This document shows positions 945 through 12,820 of a stretch of DNA of 14,351 nt, piece by piece. Numbering within the stretch: position 1 is the stretch's first letter; the number at the start of each line of letters is the position of its first letter. Origin of the DNA: Acetobacteraceae bacterium (lineage in GTDB: Bacteria; Pseudomonadota; Alphaproteobacteria; Acetobacterales; Acetobacteraceae). The notes beneath the pieces were generated by a model. The model made no database searches. It saw only the letters and a list, made by a program, of their open reading frames with translations, and was not told the origin of the DNA. The translations under genes and the position numbers were made by a program. The DNA lies in NCBI GenBank assembly GCA_027340195.1, contig DAHWNE010000108.1, positions 1-14,351 of the forward strand, read 5' to 3'.

Positions 945-2588
945 TCAGCCCGCCGGACGCAGCCGCGGCGGCAGGGTGGCGAGCGATTCTGCGGTGTCGA
1001 AATCGCGCAGCACCGCGTCATCGGACATTTCCACCTCCGCCACGTTCTCGAGGTGCTGGCCGAGCAGGAAGCGGGCGCCGGAATCGCCGGTGATGCGCAG
1101 GATCTCGGGGAAGAACCTTCGGTCCCACAGCATCGGGTTGCCTTGCTTGCCGCGGAAGGTGGGCAGCACGATCAGCCGGCCCTCGTCGGGGTCGTAGGCG
1201 TCCAGCAGCTGGTCGATCATGCGCCCGGTCACCAGCGGCATGTCGCCCAGGCAGACGATGGCCGCCGCCGCTTCCGGCGGCACCGCGGCGATGCCGGCGC
1301 GGAGCGAGGCGGACAGCCCATCGGCATAATCCGGCGCATGGACCCCCCGCACCGGCCGACCGCCCAGCGCGTGCATCACCTGTTCGGCCTGGTGGCCGGT
1401 CACCACCACCACCGGACGGGCCTTGGAGGACAGCACGTTGTCCACCACCCGCGCGATCATCGGCTTGCCGGACCGGTCCACCACCAGCAGCTTGTTGAGC
1501 GGCGCCATGCGCCGGGATCGTCCCGCGCCCAGCACCACGCCGGCGATCAGCGGCGCACTGCGCGGCGCCGGGCCCACCCGCGCCTCGGCGGTGGCCTTCT
1601 CTCGCGGCAACGGGCGGGCATCGGTCTCCTTCAGCAGCCCGCCGACACCGAAGCGCTCCACCGCCACCGGCAGGCCGGCGAACAGGCGCGGCAATACCAT
1701 GTCGATTCCGTTCTGTTTCGGACTGCGCGCGCAGCCGGGCAGCACCAGTGCCGGCCGCGCGCCGATCCGGCCGAGGCAGATCAGGTTGCCGGGATCGACC
1801 GGCATACCGAAATGAACAATCTCCCCACCCGCGCGCACGATCCCCTCCGGACCGACATCGCGCCGGTCCACCACCGCCGAGGCGCCGGCCACCAGCAGCA
1901 GCTCGGCCCCCTGCGCCAGCAACCCCTCCAGCGCGGCGGCGATGGACTGGGTGTCGTGGCGCACCCGCCTTGCCGGCAGCATCCGCCCGCCCAGCGCCAC
2001 CACCCTTGCCTCGGTGACGGCGATGGTCTTGTCGGTGGCGTTCTCCTTGATGCCGGGCAGTTCGGTGACCACCAGCCCGACCGTCAGCGGCCGGAACGGA
2101 AACAGCCGCAGCGCCGGGGCGCCATGCGCGGCGACCGTCTCGGCCACCTGGACCAGGGTGCCGGGAACCGCGAAGGGGATCACCTTCACGGTCGCCACCA
2201 GATCGCGCTTCGCCACCACCGCGCCGTCGGGCAGGGTGCCGATCGTCAGCGCCTCGTCCACCCCGTTCAGCCGGTCGATCTTGGCGGCCTCCACCAGGAG
2301 CACGCCGGCGGTCTCGGCGGCGAGGTTGACCCGTCCGGTGGCGGCGCGGGTGCGGGTGATCCCGGGGGAGAGCAGCTTGGCGGCGAGCCGGTCGGCGGCG
2401 ATGTCCTCCGGCACGTCGCCGGGCTCCAGCCGGGCCGCGATCACTTCGGTGAGGCCGGCGGCGCGCAGCGCCTCCAGCGCCGCCTCGTCCAGCACCGCGC
2501 CTTTGCGCAGCATCCGCCCGTCCAGCCGGTGCGAATGGGCCAGGATGGCGCCGCGCGCCTCGGAGAGCGTGACCGGGCCGAACTTCAT
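945..2588 (-). CDS. Fused molybdopterin-binding / MocA-type molybdenum cofactor nucleotidyltransferase
   Basis: This 547-residue cytosolic two-domain protein has an N-terminal half (about 1-320) of the MoeA/MogA-like molybdopterin-binding type, with VAGASAVVDRRDVGPEGIV (233-251), a GMPVDPGNL loop (261-269) and LVLPGCARSPKQNGID (281-296). The C-terminal half (about 347-540) is a MobA/MocA-like nucleotidyltransferase with LGAGRSRRMAPLNKLL (353-368), CLGDMP (446-451) and RGKQGNP (479-485) plus GDSGARFLL (501-509). The P-loop reads GAG, like the Ala-containing loop of CTP-using MocA, rather than GGG/AGG of GTP-using MobA. CTP use, giving molybdopterin cytosine dinucleotide, is therefore the likelier activity. 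The ATG overlaps the stop of the upstream XdhC-C gene (ATGA, 2588-2585). The fusion probably channels cofactor from binding to nucleotide attachment, for a CO dehydrogenase/xanthine dehydrogenase-family enzyme not present here. Confidence 0.88.
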   Translation of the reverse strand: MKFGPVTLSEARGAILAHSHRLDGRMLRKGAVLDEAALEALRAAGLTEVIAARLEPGDVPEDIAADRLAAKLLSPGITRTRAATGRVNLAAETAGVLLVEAAKIDRLNGVDEALTIGTLPDGAVVAKRDLVATVKVIPFAVPGTLVQVAETVAAHGAPALRLFPFRPLTVGLVVTELPGIKENATDKTIAVTEARVVALGGRMLPARRVRHDTQSIAAALEGLLAQGAELLLVAGASAVVDRRDVGPEGIVRAGGEIVHFGMPVDPGNLICLGRIGARPALVLPGCARSPKQNGIDMVLPRLFAGLPVAVERFGVGGLLKETDARPLPREKATAEARVGPAPRSAPLIAGVVLGAGRSRRMAPLNKLLVVDRSGKPMIARVVDNVLSSKARPVVVVTGHQAEQVMHALGGRPVRGVHAPDYADGLSASLRAGIAAVPPEAAAAIVCLGDMPLVTGRMIDQLLDAYDPDEGRLIVLPTFRGKQGNPMLWDRRFFPEILRITGDSGARFLLGQHLENVAEVEMSDDAVLRDFDTAESLATLPPRLRPAG

Positions 2589-3295
2589 GCCGCCTGTGCG
2601 ACCGGTCGCGCCGGGGCGAGCGGGGAGCCGCGCCGGGCGGCCACCAGCTCGGCGGCGATGGAGAGTCCGATCTCGGGCGCGGTGACGGCTTCCAGGTTCA
2701 GGCCGACCGGCCCCTTGATGCGCGCCAGCGCGGCTTCGGAATGGCCGAGTGCGGCGAGCCGGCCGAGGCGCGCGGCATGGGTGCGGCGCGAGCCGAGCGC
2801 GCCGATGTAGAACGCATCGGATCGCAGCGCCTGGTCCAGCGCCGGATCGTCCAGCTTCGGATCATGGGTGAGGGTGACGACGGCGGTGCGATGATCGGGA
2901 GCGAGGGCCGCCATCGCCTCGTCCGGCCAGTCGGTGCGGATGGTGACGTTGGGGAAACGCTCGTCGGAGGCGAAGCCGCGGCGGGGATCGACCACGGTGA
3001 CGGCGAAGCCCACTTCGCTGGCGAACGGGACCAGCGCCTGGGCGATGTGCACCGCGCCGACCACGATCAGCCGCAGCGGCGGGTTGTAGGCGTGCAGGAA
3101 CCAATCGGCCCCGTCGATCCGCTGCGTGCCCGAGCGGTCCTCGGCCAGGGCGGCGGCGGCGGCCTGGTTGAGCGCGGCGCCGGCGGCGGGATCGGGAAGC
3201 AGGTATTGCACGCCGTCCGGCAGGCGGGTGGCCAGCACCACCGGGCGCTTGGCGGCGCGGGCCTCGGCGAGAGCGGCCAGCAGGGCGGGAGTCAT
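2585..3295 (-). CDS. XdhC family protein, Rossmann (C-terminal) domain
   Basis: This 236-residue protein corresponds to the C-terminal XdhC_C domain of XdhC/CoxI molybdoenzyme maturation factors, which bind molybdenum cofactor and help insert its sulfurated form. It shows a Rossmann strand-loop RLIVVGAVHIAQAL (75-88) followed by VTVVDPR (99-105), then LTHDPKLDDPAL (142-153), YIGALGSRRTHAAR (163-176) and a C-terminal EAVTAPEIGLSIAAEL (202-217). The first Rossmann glycine pattern is GAVHIA instead of the commoner GaGHIA. In many bacteria this domain is fused behind the N-terminal XdhC domain; here the two are separate genes joined by an ATGA overlap (3295-3292). The start is fixed by that overlap. 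The next gene overlaps its stop in the same way. Confidence 0.9.
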   Translation of the reverse strand: MTPALLAALAEARAAKRPVVLATRLPDGVQYLLPDPAAGAALNQAAAAALAEDRSGTQRIDGADWFLHAYNPPLRLIVVGAVHIAQALVPFASEVGFAVTVVDPRRGFASDERFPNVTIRTDWPDEAMAALAPDHRTAVVTLTHDPKLDDPALDQALRSDAFYIGALGSRRTHAARLGRLAALGHSEAALARIKGPVGLNLEAVTAPEIGLSIAAELVAARRGSPLAPARPVAQAA

Positions 3296-3615
3296 GCCAG
3301 CGGCTCCACGAAGACTTTGACCTTACCGCCGCAGGCGAGGCCGACTTCCCAGGCGCGTTCGTTGCTGACCCCGAAATCCAACAGCTGCGGGGCGCCGGTC
3401 TGCATGGTCTGGCGGGCGGCGTCGGCCACCGCGCCCTCGATACAGCCGCCGGAGACCGAGCCCGCCATGCGGCCGGACGCGGTCACGGCCATCTGGCTGC
3501 CGGCGGGGCGGGGCGAGCTGCCCCAGGTTTCGGTGACGGTGGCGATGGCGACCTGCTCGCCGGCGGCGCGCCATTGCGCGGCCAGGGTGAGGACGTCTTC
3601 GAAGTCTTGGGACAT
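3292..3615 (-). CDS. XdhC/CoxI family protein, N-terminal domain
   Basis: This 107-residue protein is the N-terminal XdhC_CoxI domain alone. Signature stretches are TWGSSPRPAGSQMAV (30-44), GSVSGGCIEG (52-61, Cys58) and GLACGG (92-97, Cys95). The two cysteines are the positions usually conserved in XdhC proteins and linked to handling of sulfurated molybdenum cofactor. It is the first gene of the minus-strand operon. GGGAGA (3628-3623) lies seven bases before the ATG and is a good ribosome-binding site. Its stop overlaps the start of the Rossmann-domain partner, so both halves are probably made in equal amounts and act together. No membrane or export signal is seen. Confidence 0.9.
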   Translation of the reverse strand: MSQDFEDVLTLAAQWRAAGEQVAIATVTETWGSSPRPAGSQMAVTASGRMAGSVSGGCIEGAVADAARQTMQTGAPQLLDFGVSNERAWEVGLACGGKVKVFVEPLA

Positions 3616-3700: not shown

Positions 3701-4324
3701 CTAATGCACCGGCGGGTGCGCCACGCCGTTGCTGTGCCCCGGCTTCGGCGCCGAGCTGTAGCGATCGACGAAGGCGATGCCGATCGCCGAGAGAATGAAG
3801 ATCGAGTGGATGATGGTCTGCCACATCACCCCGCTCGGGGTGATGGTGATGCCCGGCATCCCCATCGAGCGCACCTCGACGAACGTGCGCAGCAGCGAGA
3901 TCGAGGAGATGCCGATGATCGCCATCGCCAGCTTCACCTTGAGCAGCCCGGAATCGACATGCGACAGCCATTCCGGCTTGTCCGGGTGACGCTCGAGGCG
4001 CATCCGCGAGACGAAGGTCTCGTAGCCGCCCACGATCACCATCACCAGCAGGTTGGAGATCATCACCACGTCGATCAGCCCCAGCACGATCAGCATGATC
4101 TGCTGTTCGTTGAAATCCAGCGCGTGGCGGATCAGCTCGACCAGTTCCTTGATGAACAGGAAGACATAGACCACTTGCGCGACGATCAGCCCGAGATAGA
4201 GCGGCACCTGCAACCAGCGCGAGGCGAACATCAGTTTCGGCACCGGCGGCAGGCCGGTGGACACGGAAGCGCCCGGCGGGGGCGGCGGGGCGGCGGCGAC
4301 CGCGCTGGGATGCGGGATGTCCAT
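3701..4324 (-). CDS. UPF0114 (YqhA-type) integral membrane protein
   Basis: This 207-residue protein of the UPF0114/TIGR00645 family has unknown biochemical function. Four hydrophobic segments are visible at about 37-58, 74-98, 128-147 and 168-186. Family hallmarks are LMFASRWLQVPLYLGL (31-46) at the start of the first helix, NLLVMVIVGGYETFVS (91-106) and the polar loop before LLKVKLAMAIIGISS (127-141). A Pro/Ala-rich tail of about 30 residues precedes the first helix, so the family core starts near Met32; the start chosen here is the first in-frame ATG after the lipB stop. No Shine-Dalgarno sequence is visible before that ATG. The gene lies 8 bases downstream of lipB in the same direction, so they may be co-transcribed. 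Confidence 0.85.
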   Translation of the reverse strand: MDIPHPSAVAAAPPPPPGASVSTGLPPVPKLMFASRWLQVPLYLGLIVAQVVYVFLFIKELVELIRHALDFNEQQIMLIVLGLIDVVMISNLLVMVIVGGYETFVSRMRLERHPDKPEWLSHVDSGLLKVKLAMAIIGISSISLLRTFVEVRSMGMPGITITPSGVMWQTIIHSIFILSAIGIAFVDRYSSAPKPGHSNGVAHPPVH

Positions 4325-4331
4325 AAGGTGA

Positions 4332-4337
4332 ACTATA
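4332..4337 (-). promoter_or_regulatory. Possible -10 element for leaderless expression of the UPF0114 gene
   Basis: TATAGT on the minus strand lies exactly seven bases before the ATG at 4324, and there is no ribosome-binding site between them. This spacing fits a transcript starting at the A of the ATG. The hexamer overlaps the lipB stop codon. No convincing -35 box is seen 17 bases upstream, so support is weak. Confidence 0.22.
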
Positions 4338-5022
4338 CGAAATCCGCGCCCCTTGGGAAGCCGCCGAATACCTCCGGCCAAGCGGCGGCCAGGGCGGCAT
4401 CGGCCTCGGCGAGGGAGGCGGGCAGGCCCAGCGCGGCCAGGCTGGTGACGCCGTGGCCGCTGATGCCGCAGGGCACGATGGCGGCGAAATGCGACAGGTC
4501 GGGGGCCACGTTCAGCGCCACCCCGTGCCAGCTGACCCAGCGGGTGATGCGCACGCCGATGGCGCCGATCTTGGCCTCCGCGCCGGTGGCGGGATCGGCG
4601 ATCCAGATGCCGGTCCGGCCCTCCCGCCGCTCGCCCGTGGCGCCGAGGCGGGCAATCGCGCGGATCAGCCACTCTTCAAGGGCGCGCACATAGGCGCGCA
4701 CGTCGCGCGCCGGCACCGCCCCGTGGGGTTGGGCCAGATCCAGCATCACATAGGCGACGCGCTGCCCGGGGCCGTGATAGGTCCATTGCCCGCCGCGCCC
4801 GGCCTGGAAGCTGGGGAAGCGCGTCGGGTCCAGCAGGTCCTCGGCGCGGGCGGAGGCGCCGGCGGTCACGAGCGGCGGGTGTTCGACCAGCCAGACCTGC
4901 TCGGCCATGCTGCCGGCGCGGATCGCATCGGCTCGCGCGCGCATCGCCGCCAGCGCCTCCGGATAGGGGGTGAGGCCGGGCGAAATCCGCCACTCCGGCC
5001 CGATTGCCCGGCCCTGGTCCAT
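4333..5022 (-). CDS. lipB: Lipoyl(octanoyl) transferase LipB
   Basis: LipB moves octanoate from acyl carrier protein to lipoyl domains of 2-oxoacid dehydrogenases and the glycine cleavage H protein, the first step of lipoate assembly in the cytosol. The 229-residue length is normal. Motifs include [11 protein letters not shown] (77-87), the KIGAIG stretch with catalytic Lys151, and HGVALNV (166-172). IVPCGI follows (182-187), with nucleophile Cys185. The ATG at 5022 is the only start that keeps the N-terminal strand of the fold. A tRNA gene begins only 24 bases away on the other strand, so the lipB promoter must overlap that tRNA gene or its promoter. No Shine-Dalgarno sequence is obvious. 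LipA is not in the window. Confidence 0.95.
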
Positions 5023-5129: not shown

Positions 5130-5184
5130 TGATCCTCGCCCGCCGGTTGCGGCGCCAGCATAGCCCGTGCGAAAGGCCCCGGCG

Positions 5185-5634
5185 ATGCCGGCATTGCGCC
5201 CCGCCCGCCCTGAGGATGCGCCTTCAGTCACCGCGCTGGTGCGCGCGGCCTATGCGCGCTGGGTGCCGCGGCTGGGCCGCGAACCCGCGCCGATGACCGC
5301 GGATGACCCCGGTCTGATCGCCGCCGGCGCGGTCAGCCTGCTGGAGGAGGCAGGCCGGCTTCTGGGGGTGCTGGTGCTGATCCCGGAAGCGGACGCGCTG
5401 CTGATCGAGAACGTCGCCATCGCGCCGGACGCGCAGGGCCGTGGCCTGGGCGGGCTGCTGCTGGCCGAGGCCGAGCGGGTCGCGCGCGAGATCGGTCGGC
5501 GCCGGGTGCGGCTCTATACCAATGCGGCAATGACCGAGAACATCGGCTTCTATGCAAGGCGCGGCTTCGTCGAGACGCGGCGGGCGACCGAGCATGGGCT
5601 GCACCGGGTCTATATGGAAAAGCCGCTGGACTGA
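5185..5634 (+). CDS. GNAT family N-acetyltransferase
   Basis: This 149-residue single-domain acetyltransferase probably uses acetyl-CoA to acetylate a small molecule or a protein amine; the substrate cannot be told. Acetyl-CoA binding motif A is clear: IENVAIAPDAQGRGLGGLLL (74-93), containing the Q-x-x-G-x-G pyrophosphate loop. YTNAAMTENIGFYARRGF (111-128) is the typical motif B region with the Asn and Tyr near the thiol. The ATG at 5185 is preferred because AAAGG (5172-5176) sits eight bases before it; a GTG six codons upstream lacks this. The gene stands alone between the tRNA and the formate dehydrogenase operon, with 86 bases to fdsG. Confidence 0.88.
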   Translation: MPALRPARPEDAPSVTALVRAAYARWVPRLGREPAPMTADDPGLIAAGAVSLLEEAGRLLGVLVLIPEADALLIENVAIAPDAQGRGLGGLLLAEAERVAREIGRRRVRLYTNAAMTENIGFYARRGFVETRRATEHGLHRVYMEKPLD

Positions 5635-5663: not shown

Positions 5664-5692
5664 TTGCAATCGGTCGGGCCCGGGCCAAGTAT
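5664..5692 (+). promoter_or_regulatory. Candidate promoter of the fds operon
   Basis: TTGCAA (5664-5669) and AAGTAT (5687-5692) are separated by 17 bases, upstream of the strong fdsG ribosome-binding site (GGAGG, 5707-5711). The -35 matches four of six and the -10 three of six consensus positions. It is the best-spaced pair in the 86-base gap after the GNAT gene. No fds regulator gene is present in the window. Confidence 0.25.
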
Positions 5693-5720
5693 CGGCGAAA
5701 TCCCTCGGAGGACGCCCGGC

Positions 5721-6187
5721 ATGGAACCCGCCGCTCCATGGAGCCCTGAGCGCGCTGCATCGATCATTTCCGCGCATGTTGGGGAGGAAGGGGCGTTGTT
5801 GCCGATTCTGCACGCGCTGCAGGAGGCGTTCGGTCACATCCCGCGGGCTGCGGTTCCGCTGGTGGCGGAGGCGCTGAATCTGACGCGCGCGGAAGTGCAC
5901 GGCGTGGTTTCGTTCTACCATGAGTTTCGTGCCACCCCGCCGGGGCGGCATGTGCTGCGCCTGTGCCGGGCCGAGGCGTGTCAGGCGATGGGGGCGGAGG
6001 CGGTGCACGACGCGGTGCATCGCCGGCTGGGGGTGGGCTGGCACGAGACCACCGCCGACGGGGCGGTGACGGTGGAGCCGGTGTTCTGCCTCGGCCTCTG
6101 TGCGGTCGCGCCGTCGGGGATGCTGGACGGGGCGCCACTCGGGCGGCTTGACGCGGCGGGGCTGGCCGCGACGCTGGACCTGGCCCG

Positions 6188-6191
<4 letters not shown>
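5721..6191 (+). CDS. fdsG: NAD-dependent formate dehydrogenase, gamma subunit FdsG (NuoE-like, 2Fe-2S)
   Basis: This is the small diaphorase-side subunit of soluble NAD+-dependent formate dehydrogenase, homologous to complex I NuoE. It is 156 residues with a thioredoxin-like [2Fe-2S] domain. The four cluster ligands are visible: Cys82 and Cys87 in LCRAEACQAMG (81-91), and Cys123 and Cys127 in VFCLGLCAVAP (121-131). The N-terminal helical part with LPILHALQEAFGHIP (27-41) and VHGVVSFYHEF (59-69) is typical of the family. The ATG at 5721 is chosen because GGAGG (5707-5711) stands nine bases before it; a TTG farther upstream has no such site. The stop overlaps the fdsB start by ATGA (6188-6191), consistent with one operon and fixed stoichiometry. 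Confidence 0.94.
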
Positions 6192-7717
<1,526 letters not shown>

Positions 7718-7727
7718 GGAGCGTCCG

Positions 7728-10562
7728 ATGCTGCACGTGGAACCCGATTTCGGCACGCCGGCGAGCGCGGCCACCGCGAGCGTCACGCTGACCATCGACG
7801 GGACGCGCGTCACGGTGCCGGAAGGCACCTCGGTGATGCGCGCCGCCGCCGAGGCGGGCATCACCATCCCCAAGCTCTGCGCCACCGACAGCCTCGCCGC
7901 CTTCGGCTCCTGCCGGCTCTGCCTGGTGGAGATCGAGGGGCGAGGCGGCACGCCGGCCTCCTGCACCACCCCGGTCGGTGCCGGAATGGTGGTGCATACC
8001 GGCACCGACCGGCTGCGCAAACTGCGCCGCGGGGTGATGGAACTCTATCTCTCCGACCATCCGGCCGATGGGATGACCTCGCCGATCGCCGGGGTGGGCG
8101 AGATGCAGGTGATGGCCGGGATCGTCGGGCTGCGGGAGGTGCGCTACGGCGCCGGCGCCAACCATCTGGCGGCGGCGATCGACGGCTCCAACCCGTATTT
8201 CCAGTTCGATCCGGCGCGCTGCATCGTCTGCTCGCGCTGCGTACGCGCCTGCGAGGAGACCCAGGGCACCTTCGCGCTCACCGTGCAGGGGCGCGGGTTC
8301 GCCTCGAAGATCGTCGCCGGGATGGACGAGCCGTTCCTGCATTCGGAATGCGTCTCCTGCGGCGCCTGCGTGCAGGCCTGCCCGACCGGGGCGCTGATCG
8401 AAAAATCCGTCGTTTCCCTCGGCCAGCCGGAGCGGGCGGTGGAGACCACCTGCGCCTATTGCGGCGTCGGATGCAGCTTCCGCGCGGAGATGCAGGGCGA
8501 GACGGTGGTACGCATGGTGCCAACCAAGTCGGGCAAGGCCAATCACGGCCATTCCTGCGTCAAGGGCCGCTTCGCCTGGGGGTACGCCCAGCACCGGGAC
8601 CGTATCCTCAAGCCCATGCTGCGCGCGAAGATCACCGATCCCTGGCGCGAAGTGTCCTGGGACGAAGCCATCGCCCATGTCGCCGCCGAGTTCCGCCGCC
8701 TGCAAGCGCGCCTGGGCAAGGACAGCATCGGCGTCATCACCTCCTCGCGCTGCACCAACGAGGAGACCTATCTGGTGCAGAAGCTGGCCCGCGCCGGCTT
8801 CGGCAACAACAACACCGATACCTGCGCCCGGGTCTGCCATTCGCCCACCGGCTACGGGCTGGCGACCACCTTCGGCACCTCGGCCGGGACCAATGATTTC
8901 GATTCGGTCGATCACGCCGACGTGGTGCTGGTGATGGGCGCCAACCCGACCGACGGACACCCGGTGTTCGCCTCCCACCTCAAGCGCCGGCTGCGGGAGG
9001 GAGCCAAGCTGATCGTGATCGATCCGCGCCGGATCGATCTGGTGCGCACGCCGCATATCGCCGCCACGCACCACCTGCCGCTGCGCCCCGGCACCAACGT
9101 GGCGATGCTGGACGCGCTGGCGCATGTGATCGTGACCGAGGGGCTGGTCGATCAGGACTATGTGCGCGCGCGCTGCGATGCCGAGGCCTTCGCCGAATGG
9201 GCCGCCTTCGTGGCCGAGCCGCGCAACAGCCCGGAGACGGTGGCGGCGCTGACCGGCGTGCCGGCGGAGACGATCCGCGGCGCCGCGCGTCTCTATGCCA
9301 CCGGCGGGCGGGCGGCGATCTATTACGGTCTCGGCGTCACCGAGCACAGCCAGGGCAGCACCGCGGTGATGGGGCTGGCGAATCTGGCGATGGCCACCGG
9401 CAACGTGGGCAAGCCCGGCACCGGGGTCAATCCGCTGCGCGGGCAGAACAATGTCCAGGGGTCCTGCGACATGGGCAGCTTCCCGCACGAACTGCCCGGC
9501 TATCGCCACATCTCGCGCCCCGAGGTGCGGGCGATCTACGAGCGGGAATGGGGTGTCGCGCTGAACCCGGAGCCGGGCCTGCGGATTCCCAACATGTTCG
9601 ACGCCGCCTTGGACGGCAGCTTCAAGGGCCTCTACGTCCAGGGCGAGGACATCGTGCAGTCCGACCCCAACACCCAGCACGTCGCCGCGGCGATGGCGGC
9701 GATGGAGTGCGTCGTCGTGCAGGACCTGTTCCTCAACGAGACCGCGACCTTCGCGCATGTCTTCCTGCCCGGCTCGACCTTCCTGGAGAAGGACGGCACC
9801 TTCGTCAACGCCGAACGGCGGATCGGGCGGGTGCGCCGGGCGATGGCGCCGCGCAACGGCTACGCCGACTGGGAGATCACCCAGATGATCGCCAACGCCA
9901 TGGGGTGCGGCTGGACCTACACCCATCCCAGCCAGATCATGGACGAGATCGCCCGCACCACGCCGACCTTCGCGGGCGTGAGCTACGCCAAGCTCGATCG
10001 GCTGGGCTCGGTGCAATGGCCGTGCAACGAGGCCGCGCCCGAAGGTACCCCCACCATGCACGAGACCGGCTTCGTGCGCGGCAAGGGGCTGTTCGTGGTG
10101 ACCGAATACATCCCCACCGACGAGCGCACCGGCCCGCGCTTCCCGCTGCTGCTGACCACCGGGCGCATCCTGAGCCAGTACAATGTCGGCGCGCAGACGC
10201 GCCGGACCGACAATACGCTGTGGCACGCCGAGGACGTGCTGGAGATCCACCCGCACGACGCCGAGGAGCGCGGCATCCGCGACGGCGATCTGGTGCGCCT
10301 CGCCTCCCGCGCCGGGGCCACCGCCCTGCGCGCGAAGGTGACCGACCGGGTGGCGCCGGGGGTGGTCTACACCACCTTCCACCATCCCGAGACCCAGGCC
10401 AACGTGGTCACCACCGAATATTCCGATTGGGCGACGAACTGCCCGGAATACAAGGTGACCGCGGTGCAGGTCTCGCCGGCCAATGGCCCGACCGACTGGC
10501 AGGAGAGCTACCGCGTCATGGCCGAACGCAGCCGGCGGATCGAGGCGGTGCCGGCCAAGTGA
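7728..10562 (+). CDS. fdsA: NAD-dependent formate dehydrogenase, alpha (catalytic, molybdenum) subunit FdsA
   Basis: This 944-residue catalytic subunit oxidises formate to CO2 at a bis-MGD molybdenum site. From the N-terminus: a [2Fe-2S] domain (Cys51, 62, 65, 79); a degenerate His-Cys3 site (His111 kept, Cys positions now Gly115, Ser118, Gly124); two ferredoxin-type [4Fe-4S] motifs (Cys165/168/171/175 and Cys208/211/214/218); and the [4Fe-4S] of the catalytic domain (Cys242/245/249/277). The metal ligand is Cys370 followed by His371 in TCARVCHSP, so it is a cysteine, not a selenocysteine enzyme. The conserved substrate Arg is Arg571 in NPLRGQNNVQG. Length is near the usual ~950. AAGGAG lies six bases before the ATG. 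Mo is assumed because FdhD and Mo-cofactor genes are near; W cannot be excluded from sequence. Confidence 0.95.
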   Translation: MLHVEPDFGTPASAATASVTLTIDGTRVTVPEGTSVMRAAAEAGITIPKLCATDSLAAFGSCRLCLVEIEGRGGTPASCTTPVGAGMVVHTGTDRLRKLRRGVMELYLSDHPADGMTSPIAGVGEMQVMAGIVGLREVRYGAGANHLAAAIDGSNPYFQFDPARCIVCSRCVRACEETQGTFALTVQGRGFASKIVAGMDEPFLHSECVSCGACVQACPTGALIEKSVVSLGQPERAVETTCAYCGVGCSFRAEMQGETVVRMVPTKSGKANHGHSCVKGRFAWGYAQHRDRILKPMLRAKITDPWREVSWDEAIAHVAAEFRRLQARLGKDSIGVITSSRCTNEETYLVQKLARAGFGNNNTDTCARVCHSPTGYGLATTFGTSAGTNDFDSVDHADVVLVMGANPTDGHPVFASHLKRRLREGAKLIVIDPRRIDLVRTPHIAATHHLPLRPGTNVAMLDALAHVIVTEGLVDQDYVRARCDAEAFAEWAAFVAEPRNSPETVAALTGVPAETIRGAARLYATGGRAAIYYGLGVTEHSQGSTAVMGLANLAMATGNVGKPGTGVNPLRGQNNVQGSCDMGSFPHELPGYRHISRPEVRAIYEREWGVALNPEPGLRIPNMFDAALDGSFKGLYVQGEDIVQSDPNTQHVAAAMAAMECVVVQDLFLNETATFAHVFLPGSTFLEKDGTFVNAERRIGRVRRAMAPRNGYADWEITQMIANAMGCGWTYTHPSQIMDEIARTTPTFAGVSYAKLDRLGSVQWPCNEAAPEGTPTMHETGFVRGKGLFVVTEYIPTDERTGPRFPLLLTTGRILSQYNVGAQTRRTDNTLWHAEDVLEIHPHDAEERGIRDGDLVRLASRAGATALRAKVTDRVAPGVVYTTFHHPETQANVVTTEYSDWATNCPEYKVTAVQVSPANGPTDWQESYRVMAERSRRIEAVPAK

Positions 10563-11395
10563 CCGACCCGCGCATCCCCGATCCGGCCCGCTCCCTGCCG
10601 CGCACGCTCTGGCGCGACGGCGCGCTGGCGTCGGGGCGGCGCGCGGTCGCCGAGGAAACCCCGATCGCCTTCACCTACAACCGCGCCACCCTGGCGGTGA
10701 TGATGGCGAGCCCCGCCGATCTGGAGGATTTCGCGGTGGGGTTCAGCCTCACCGAGGGGATTGTCACGGCGCCGGATCAGATCGGCGAATGCGCCATCGT
10801 CGCCGCCGAGGGCGGGATCGAACTGCGGATGTGGCTCCCGCCCGAGCGCGCCGCCGCCGCCGAGACCCGCCGGCGCCACCTCGCCGGACCGGGCGGCTGC
10901 GGGCTGTGCGGCATCGAGAGTCTCGCCGCCGCCGCGCGCCCGCCGCCGCGGGTGGCCGCCGAACCGCGCTTCGCGGCCGGCGAGATCGCCGCCGCCGCCG
11001 CCAGCCTCGGGCCGGCCCAGCGTCTGAACGCGGCGACGCGCGCCACCCATGCCGCCGGGTTCTGGACCCAAGCCGAGGGGCTGGTGGCGCTGCGGGAAGA
11101 TGTCGGGCGGCACAACGCGCTCGACAAGCTCGCCGGCCATCTCGCCCGCGCCGGGCGGGCGGCGGGGGACGGCATCGTGCTGCTGTCCTCCCGGCTTTCG
11201 GTCGAGCTGGTGCAGAAGGCGGCGATGATCGGCGCGCCGGTGCTGGTCGCCGTCTCCGCCCCCACCGCACTGGCCATCCGCGTCGCCGAGGCCGCCGGCA
11301 TCACCCTGATCGGCATCGCGCGCACCGACGGGTTCGAAATCTTCACCCATCCGCATCGCATCACCGCGCCGGAGAGTGCCCGCCATGTCGCCTGA
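10559..11395 (+). CDS. fdhD: Formate dehydrogenase accessory sulfurtransferase FdhD (FdsC)
   Basis: FdhD/FdsC binds bis-MGD and passes sulfur from a cysteine desulfurase to it, which makes formate dehydrogenase active. This copy has 278 residues. The persulfide-carrying pair is present as Cys114 and Cys117 in GGCGLCGIES (112-121). Other family stretches are EETPIAFTYNRATLAVMM (32-49), LEDFAVGFSLTEGI (55-68), and EDVGRHNALDKLAGHL farther on. The GTG start is set by a GTGA overlap with the fdsA stop (10559-10562) and places the N-terminus where family members begin. Its 3' end overlaps fdsD by 11 bases. It acts in the cytosol before FdsA folding is completed. Confidence 0.93.
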   Translation: MTDPRIPDPARSLPRTLWRDGALASGRRAVAEETPIAFTYNRATLAVMMASPADLEDFAVGFSLTEGIVTAPDQIGECAIVAAEGGIELRMWLPPERAAAAETRRRHLAGPGGCGLCGIESLAAAARPPPRVAAEPRFAAGEIAAAAASLGPAQRLNAATRATHAAGFWTQAEGLVALREDVGRHNALDKLAGHLARAGRAAGDGIVLLSSRLSVELVQKAAMIGAPVLVAVSAPTALAIRVAEAAGITLIGIARTDGFEIFTHPHRITAPESARHVA

Positions 11396-11603
11396 CCGCC
11401 TGGCCTATATGGCCAACCAGATCGGCAAGTTCTTCGCCCACCGCCCGCACGAGGCAGCAGTGGCCGGGGTGGAGGAGCATCTGCGCAAGTTCTGGGACCC
11501 CAGAATGCGCAACCAGATCGTGGCCGATCTGAAAAGCGGCGCCGCCGCGCTGGACCCCACCGTCCGCGAGGCAGTCGAGCGGCTGGGGGCGACATCGGGA
11601 TAG
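11385..11603 (+). CDS. fdsD: NAD-dependent formate dehydrogenase, delta subunit FdsD
   Basis: This 72-residue protein closes the fds operon. It carries the family pattern RLAYMANQIGKFFAHRP (5-21) and EEHLRKFWDPRMRNQI (30-45), with a conserved C-terminal VREAVERL. FdsD is a small subunit needed for assembly or cofactor handling of this enzyme class; it has no cluster ligands. GGAGAG (11371-11376) lies eight bases before the ATG at 11385, which makes this start better than a GTG three codons upstream. The start lies 11 bases inside the fdhD gene, so translation is probably coupled. Confidence 0.92.
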   Translation: MSPDRLAYMANQIGKFFAHRPHEAAVAGVEEHLRKFWDPRMRNQIVADLKSGAAALDPTVREAVERLGATSG

Positions 11604-11674: not shown

Positions 11675-12820
11675 ATGGATTTCGATCTTTCCGACGATCA
11701 GCGCCTGTTGCGCGACAGCGTCAGCCGGCTGATCGCCGACCGTTACGGGTTCGAGGCACGCCGCAAGCACCTGGCCGAACCGGACGGCTGGAGCCGGGCG
11801 GTATGGGCGCAATATGCCGAACTCGGCCTGCTGGGGGTGGCGTTCCCCGAGGCGCTGGGCGGCTATGGCGGCGGGGCGGTCGAGACGATGATCGTGATGG
11901 AGGCGTTCGGCCGCGGGCTGATCCTGGAACCCTATCTGGCGACGGTGGTGCTGGGCGGGGGCTTGCTGCGCCGTCTGGGCAGCGCGGACCAGCAGGCCGC
12001 GTTGCTGCCGCGGATCGCCGATGGCTCGCTGCTGCTGGCGTTCGCGCATCTGGAACGCCAGTCGCGCTGGAACCTGGCGGATGTGGCGGCGACAGCCCGG
12101 GCCGTAGGGGGCGGGTGGGTGATCTCCGGGACGAAAAGCGTGGTGCTGCATGGCGATGTCGCGCAGCACCTGCTGGTGAGCGCGCGGGTTTCCGGCGGGC
12201 GGACCGACCGTGACGGGGTGGGGCTGTTCCTGGTCGATGCCGCCGGGTCAGGGGTGAGCCGGCGCGGCTACCCGACGCAGGATGGGCTGCGGGCGGCTGA
12301 GATCCTGCTGGACGGCGCGGCGGGGGAGCCGGTGGGAACGCCGGGCGCGGCATTGGCGGGGATGGAGGCGGCGGTGGATGCGGCCATCGCGGCGCTCTGC
12401 GCCGAGGCGGTGGGGGCGATGTCGGCCTTGCAGGAGCTGACGCTGGAGTATCTGAAGACCCGCAAGCAGTTCGGCCGCCCGATCGGCAGCTTCCAGGCGT
12501 TGCAGCACCGGGCGGTGGATATGCTGACCGCGGTGGAGCAGGCGCGGGGAATGGCGCTCTATGCGACGATGATGGCCGAGGAGGCGGACCCGCTGGAGCG
12601 GCGGCGGGCGATCACCGCGGCGAAGGCGCAGATCGGGCGGGCGGCGCGCGCGGTGGGGCAGGAGGCGATCCAGCTGCATGGCGGGATCGGGATGACGATG
12701 GAATATGCCGGGGGGCATTATTTCAAGCGGCTGACCATGATCGACCAGATGTTCGGGGATGCGGACCGGCATCTGAGCGAACTGGCGGCGCTGGGAGGGG
12801 TGTTCGGGGCGGCGGCGTGA
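11675..12820 (+). CDS. Acyl-CoA dehydrogenase, pimeloyl-CoA dehydrogenase small-subunit type (PimD-like)
   Basis: This 381-residue flavoprotein of the acyl-CoA dehydrogenase family has an N-terminal helical domain beginning DFDLSDDQRLLRDSV (2-16), GLLGVAFPEALGGYGGG (51-67) and a VETMIVMEAFGRGL stretch (69-82). The FAD-binding C-terminal domain has KTRKQFGRPIGSFQALQH (261-278) and AIQLHGGIGMTMEYA (331-345). The overall pattern, including EPYLATVVLGGG (85-96), resembles the small subunit of pimeloyl-CoA dehydrogenase, which normally pairs with a larger subunit to oxidise dicarboxyl-CoA esters; that partner is not in the window. An ungapped comparison with medium-chain dehydrogenase puts Phe360 where the catalytic Glu normally sits. 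AGGGGG (11661-11666) lies eight bases before the ATG. The specific substrate is uncertain. Confidence 0.85.
   Translation: MDFDLSDDQRLLRDSVSRLIADRYGFEARRKHLAEPDGWSRAVWAQYAELGLLGVAFPEALGGYGGGAVETMIVMEAFGRGLILEPYLATVVLGGGLLRRLGSADQQAALLPRIADGSLLLAFAHLERQSRWNLADVAATARAVGGGWVISGTKSVVLHGDVAQHLLVSARVSGGRTDRDGVGLFLVDAAGSGVSRRGYPTQDGLRAAEILLDGAAGEPVGTPGAALAGMEAAVDAAIAALCAEAVGAMSALQELTLEYLKTRKQFGRPIGSFQALQHRAVDMLTAVEQARGMALYATMMAEEADPLERRRAITAAKAQIGRAARAVGQEAIQLHGGIGMTMEYAGGHYFKRLTMIDQMFGDADRHLSELAALGGVFGAAA

Follow-up and report, generated by a model that had tools for sequence, protein, structure and literature searches.

In complex I, the electron chain passes through cluster N5 of the NuoG/Nqo3 subunit as one of its in-line steps, and the His-Cys3 [4Fe-4S] cluster A4 in the FdsA subunit of formate dehydrogenases is, presumably, the counterpart of N5. 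In the Rhodobacter capsulatus enzyme (RcFDH), A4 is, by contrast, a side branch: as described in the structural report, A4 is held by His117, Cys121, Cys124 and Cys130, and the electron path from bis-MGD to FMN consists of A1, A2, A3, A5 and B6, with A4 outside it (PMC7171172). The same report places A4 at the dimer interface, which is formed solely by the two FdsA subunits and where Leu119 and Leu122 intercalate; the resulting row A3-A4-A4'-A3' could pass electrons between protomers, for which the authors draw a parallel with [NiFe] hydrogenase recovering from oxygen attack, while leaving the function of A4 open (PMC7171172). The cluster need not be idle, since a difference map hints at redox activity of A4 upon reduction with NADH (PMC7171172). 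A personal review states that EPR never showed one of the RcFDH clusters, likely A4, in the reduced state (PMC10385643). Finally, MeFDH1 of Methylobacterium (Methylorubrum) extorquens (7VW6, 7E5Z) functions without a counterpart of A4, there named A5 (PMC10869683). Apart from MeFDH1, a search of the open-access literature, as far as its text was available, returned no FdsA that had lost A4, and the combination of FdsA and Acetobacteraceae returned nothing in that literature.

The DNA considered here (the window, that is, the whole analysed stretch of 14,351 nucleotides from an Acetobacteraceae bacterium) carries a formate dehydrogenase operon with the following features:

5664..6191, forward strand: fdsG, gamma subunit, [2Fe-2S]; exact start uncertain (NF004638, 224.8 bits, cut-off 198)
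6188..7717, forward strand: fdsB, beta subunit, FMN and [4Fe-4S] (domain matches, list of Cys residues)
7728..10562, forward strand: fdsA, formate dehydrogenase alpha subunit, 944 aa (TIGR01591, 932.4 bits, cut-off 666.25)
7878..7964, forward strand: ligands Cys51, 62, 65 and 79 of the [2Fe-2S] cluster (A5) of FdsA, present
8049..8051, forward strand: Leu108, where A4-bearing FdsA has Ile108
8058..8099, forward strand: degenerate A4 (His-Cys3 [4Fe-4S]) site of FdsA; His111 retained, Gly115, Ser118 and Gly124 at the Cys places
8217..8219, forward strand: Arg164, immediately preceding Cys165; Lys in A4-bearing FdsA
8220..8381, forward strand: eight Cys (165-218) for the ferredoxin-type [4Fe-4S] clusters A2 and A3 of FdsA, present
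8388..8393, forward strand: Gly221-Ala222, immediately after Cys218; Ala-Thr in A4-bearing FdsA
10559..11395, forward strand: fdsC/fdhD sulfurtransferase, start approximate (TIGR00129, 194.5 bits, cut-off 140.9)
11385..11603, forward strand: fdsD, delta subunit (PF11390, 89.3 bits, cut-off 27)

The gene order fdsG-fdsB-fdsA-fdsC-fdsD is complete, as expected of the FdsABGD type. FdsA retains Cys370 and His371 at the Mo site and the ligands of A1, A2, A3 and A5, its cysteines being 51/62/65/79, 165/168/171/175, 208/211/214/218, 242/245/249/277 and 370. The diaphorase module is also present by sequence, with the FMN/[4Fe-4S] domains of FdsB (C434-x2-C437-x2-C440 and C480) and the [2Fe-2S] domain of FdsG (C101, C106, C142, C146), so that the contention of an earlier note on this DNA that all other cluster ligands of the three subunits are in place is borne out. 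Near the operon, on the reverse strand, lie genes of molybdenum-cofactor maturation, namely an XdhC split over two overlapping ORFs (2585-3615; XdhC_CoxI at 3292-3615 and the XdhC Rossmann domain at 2585-3295) and, adjoining them, a 547-aa ORF for a MobA-like transferase (945-2588), downstream of which, on the same strand, follows a 306-aa ORF (22-942) with no Pfam match. Other neighbours encode an acyl-CoA dehydrogenase (11675-12820), a GNAT acetyltransferase (5167-5634), a LipB-like lipoyl transferase (4333-5022) and a UPF0114 protein (3701-4672).

What the sequence lacks of the FdsABGD type is the site of cluster A4, a feature that is not universal in the family. FdsA residues 111-124, translated in an unbroken frame from bases 8058-8099, read HPADGMTSPIAGVG, and an alignment to the nearest solved relatives, RcFDH (FdsABGD, 6TG9/6TGA; 1532 bits) and the R. 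aestuarii enzyme (9WXB; 1558 bits), which is ungapped here, equates H111/G115/S118/G124 with RcFDH His117/Cys121/Cys124/Cys130. Thus, as the earlier note had it, His111 is kept and all three cysteines are replaced, and the reference alignment does not place them elsewhere. PF10588, which we take to be the NuoG His-Cys3 domain, has no Pfam match in the window FdsA; it is listed for many homologues, including some that lack the cysteines. An AlphaFold model of FdsA, computed with a 38-row alignment, has a mean pLDDT of 54.6, with residues 106-124 and 135-232 below 50, too low for the model to be used. The two solved relatives share with the window the subunits, the Mo-site residues and the ligands of A1, A2, A3, A5 and of the FdsB and FdsG clusters; they differ in having the A4 cysteines and Ala-Thr after the last cysteine of the ferredoxin part, both of which the window lacks. 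We predict from these comparisons, with a probability of about 0.85, that the window encodes a working NAD+-dependent Mo formate dehydrogenase of the FdsABGD type in which FdsA has lost cluster A4.

The absence of A4 is shared with the MeFDH1 (Fdh1AB) type, which likewise keeps the main relay and which reads CPTGA, as does the window. However, MeFDH1 belongs to a separate, distant lineage (612 bits) and is a two-subunit W enzyme whose beta subunit corresponds to FdsB plus FdsG and which has no FdsD (PMC10869683), whereas fdsG and fdsB are separate in the window and fdsD is present. Hence, of the earlier suggestion that the enzyme carries one cluster fewer than characterised soluble NAD-dependent formate dehydrogenases, the destruction of the site stands, while its uniqueness does not, MeFDH1 being such an enzyme (PMC10869683).

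The earlier note had left it undecided whether a whole clade shares the loss; alignment of the homologues shows that it is common among relatives. Of 8000 homologues that were scored, the best 120 include 80 in which the ligand set is missing (no cysteine left in 65, only the third in 15) and 40 in which it is complete. Two close records, P0001 and P0002 (96% and 90% identical to the window FdsA), have lost A4 as well, the site of the former reading GMTSPIAGAGE. A match to the FdsA N-domain exists in 95 of the 299 genomes of the window's family; in the 94 that were read (G012, as well as a second match in G198, was left out), the A4 set is found in 82 and missing in 12, which belong to seven genera, including the window's own. 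The readable genus mates (G002-G004) have Thr, Ala and Cys at the Cys places; since they keep the third cysteine, the window has lost one more than they have. Across the window's class, 66 of 385 genomes match, and three of the 65 beyond the window's own, all of one genus, lack the A4 set. Among 80 loci from named records, the set is present in 75, missing in two, namely an alphaproteobacterial MAG (L094) and Aquamicrobium defluvii (L124), and shifted in three; the counts exclude L002-L006, which are other proteins, and L036-L065, which duplicate refetched genes in shorter form, and L032, L033 and L035 end before the motif. In distant formate dehydrogenase alpha subunits (36-43% identical, mostly of the MeFDH1 type), the cysteines are lacking in 20 out of 20, the reading being CP[TS]GA.

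The three shifted rows come from Nitratireductor (L085, L097, L109), where one residue is deleted inside the A4 site (DHPADC-PACAEGDC in L097) and Gly-Ala, not Ala-Thr, occupies positions 221-222. As all three cysteines are retained, we did not class these rows as losses, scored them as retaining A4 when counting changes and excluded them from the pair tests described below; they may represent an A4 of altered shape or an intermediate in its loss.

The loss of A4 seems to recur among the relatives, in six forms of the site and with 4 to 13 changes depending on the tree. Form A, the window's, reads D, then Gly, Thr or Ala, and further on T[SA]PxAG, and also exists with a 7-residue deletion; form B reads WxSDPKxxxNELF; form C is that of L202, form D that of L203 (where His is also gone) and form E that of L124; form F, an 8-residue deletion, occurs in L094, L283, L271 and L258. 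The trees were built from rows longer than 750 residues (880 for those added later), with A4-bearing rows thinned at 86% identity and the others at 95.5%, which yields the row totals of 59, 111, 140 and 173 used here. With residues 100-145 removed, the FastTree of 173 rows requires 11 changes, 10 of them forced by starred branches; the C-domain tree of these rows requires 13 (12 forced) and the N-domain tree seven (two forced), and with 140 rows the fewest changes are four on the N-domain and 13 on the C-domain. In a 42-row set, both the C-domain (AU p 1e-72) and the N-domain (p 0.01) reject a tree in which all A4-less rows group together. Although change counts cannot separate loss from gain, loss appears likelier, given that A4 corresponds to complex I N5 and that A4-bearing rows adjoin most of the A4-less lineages. 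What is new is this recurrence, together with the linked change in the second shell described below; an A4-less NAD-dependent formate dehydrogenase as such was already known from MeFDH1.

The loss is accompanied by changes elsewhere in FdsA. Among 360 distinct rows, which include near-duplicates and some genes twice (the named records and the G genomes overlap), Ile108 is found in 260 of 263 A4-bearing against 2 of 94 A4-less rows, Lys164 in 256 against 11, and Ala-Thr at 221-222 in 252 against 2, with none in the three shifted rows. The corresponding RcFDH residues in the alignment are Ile114, Lys181 and Ala237-Thr238. A4-bearing rows have 506 conserved columns, 26 of which lie within residues 105-135; among the other 480, columns 221 and 222 (altered in 8 of 8 loss groups) and 164 (in 6 of 8) are the only ones for which this number exceeds three. 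Cys165, directly after residue 164, and Cys218, shortly before 221-222, presumably hold A3, the neighbour of A4, as judged from ferredoxin topology and N4 of complex I. In tests on independent pairs separated on starred branches, whose outcome may be overstated if the N-domain is inherited as a linked block, positions 108, 221 and 222 behaved alike, with 9.0 of 10 pairs concordant and none opposite on the full tree (median p 0.004) and 10.5 of 12, again with none opposite, on the C-domain tree (median p 0.002); position 164 gave 7.4 of 10 (median p 0.016), and Gly131 showed no significant link (median p 0.125). Separate changes are favoured by the residues that replace Ala-Thr at 221-222, since these vary with the form of loss (Gly-Ser, Gly-Ala, Ser-Ala, Asp-Ala). 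A separate observation concerns Cys67, beside the [2Fe-2S] motif, which in the thinned set is present in 16 of 59 A4-less rows and in 1 of 111 A4-bearing ones.

This coupling has exceptions, since 11 of the 263 A4-bearing rows lack Ala-Thr, while L271 (genome G575) and L258 (G652), where the A4 cysteines were removed by a clean deletion in an otherwise standard sequence, retain Ile108 and Ala-Thr. By comparison, G363, of the same genus, combines the deletion with Asp-Ala and Leu108, which suggests, at the level of sequence, that the A4 ligands were gone before the surroundings of A3 changed. Since complex I proteins usually have Gly-Ala at the equivalent of 221-222, Ala-Thr is no general mark of His-Cys3 clusters.

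Several other explanations of the degenerate site have to be considered. An error of assembly or sequencing could be suspected because the window's assembly is 66% complete and comprises 450 contigs; however, P0001 and P0002 carry the same loss in separate records and the readable congeners G002-G004 lack the first two cysteines, so that this explanation is, in practice, ruled out, as the earlier note had concluded for other reasons and as the 80 ligand-less homologues among the best 120 of 8000 confirm. Decay of a relaxed, redundant or dispensable enzyme is highly improbable too. Residues 105-135 are, indeed, about twice as relaxed as the whole gene, with dN/dS of 0.37 (G003), 0.33 (G004), 0.31 (G002), 0.31 (G056) and 0.42 (G173), but in the same five comparisons the whole of FdsA yields only 0.17, 0.17, 0.16, 0.19 and 0.24, respectively, and such low values indicate that the enzyme is maintained by purifying selection. 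Furthermore, in the 59 A4-less FdsA of the thinned set, the other cluster cysteines and the Mo ligand are kept in every readable row, with the exception of position 171 (58 of 59), and all of the 13 A4-less loci inspected have fdsG and fdsB, while 11 have fdsD, a contig end cutting it off in L146 and L183. The dN/dS values and the retained ligands rule out a pseudogene. The exceptional row, L017 (G039), has Tyr at residue 171 (CIVCSRYVRAC), where the first CxxCxxC motif should end in its third Cys; this may be a sequencing error or a sign that another cluster is defective too. It is also quite unlikely that the site still holds a cluster or a metal via other ligands, for instance Asp, Ser or Glu alongside His111, or as a [2Fe-2S] cluster. 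Retention of the His in 56 of 59 A4-less rows and of the third Cys in 13 would fit such a site; yet there is no common replacement set, the residues at the Cys places varying between types (G/T/A/W/S/I at the first, S/A/D/E at the second, S/C/N/G/D/A at the third), seven or eight loop residues are deleted in two groups, and His is replaced by Tyr or Phe in three rows.

A more serious possibility, which we rate as somewhat short of even odds, is that the scattered distribution of type A reflects a single ancient loss, carried between genes by swapping of the N-terminal domain of FdsA, rather than many losses. The N-domain allows the type A rows (12 of 42) to group as a single clade (AU p 0.71), a clade that the C-domain rejects (p 4e-69), and the change counts given above are lower on the N-domain with both 140 and 173 rows; in P0016, P0027 and L178 sliding identity switches at about residues 250-300, and in L178 the amino-acid sites of the N part differ from those of the C part for 5 of the 6 parent pairs (p under 0.05). 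On the other hand, single swaps on the short N-domain are not significant (AU p 0.09, 0.42, 0.49), and types B to F carry other sites, the N-domain itself rejecting a clade of all A4-less rows. Because the recombination test on synonymous sites of L178 was negative, with no switch for any of the 6 parent pairs (Fisher p 0.3-1.0), we hold exchange to be only suggestive; that it accounts for part of the pattern is plausible but unproven. P0016 is 88% identical to the window FdsA and has a full A4 site, with a canonical N part (70-76% identity to the window in residues 81-240, in 80-residue windows) joined to a window-like C part (86-98% beyond); it is either a recombinant or an assembly chimera, the latter weakening its value as evidence for exchange.

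Returning to recurrent loss of A4 from a maintained enzyme, the consequences for electron flow can be envisaged as follows. Electrons would still run from bis-MGD via A1, A2, A3, A5 and the [4Fe-4S] cluster of FdsB to FMN and NAD+, and NAD+-dependent formate oxidation should persist, because A4 is off this path and because MeFDH1 also works without A4. The altered electron routing that the earlier note envisaged would thus be confined to the inter-protomer branch and spare the main path, since A4 of RcFDH is off the route from bis-MGD to FMN and sits at the dimer interface (PMC7171172). With the A3-A4-A4'-A3' bridge gone, each protomer would be an electronically separate unit, and the surroundings of A3 may have been re-fitted after A4 disappeared. 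RcFDH itself is a 360 kDa dimer of heterotetramers, joined through FdsA. In the window, the equivalent of RcFDH Leu122, the most buried interface residue, is the hydrophobic Met116, so that the dimer may persist without the bridge. Of the 59 A4-less rows, 51 carry one of the residues Leu, Met, Phe, Ile and Val at position 116, where six more have gaps, and 29 carry one of them at position 113, the equivalent of Leu119. This pattern suggests that the dimer is retained without the bridge in types that keep the loop, and that the dimer contact has been remodelled or lost in the deletion types.

Tentatively, and with a probability well short of even, A4 could be regarded as an on/off module of FdsA, discarded some six times in alphaproteobacteria in a repeatable order: the ligands or the entire loop would go first, followed by Ile108, Lys164 and Ala221-Thr222 around A3. 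In the window's clade, the A4-less N-domain would, in addition, have moved between FdsA genes by recombination. The A4-less enzymes would then be electrically isolated protomers or monomers, and inter-protomer electron exchange would become an optional trait under selection.

Close relatives with and without A4 are natural knock-outs for testing the role of this cluster: G180 versus G106 and G264 in one genus, G271 versus G194 and G136 in another, and G575, G652 and G363 versus L101. Formate dehydrogenases of the FdsABGD type are wanted for CO2 reduction; fewer clusters may ease their assembly, and the second-shell changes show engineers which residues to alter together with the ligands.
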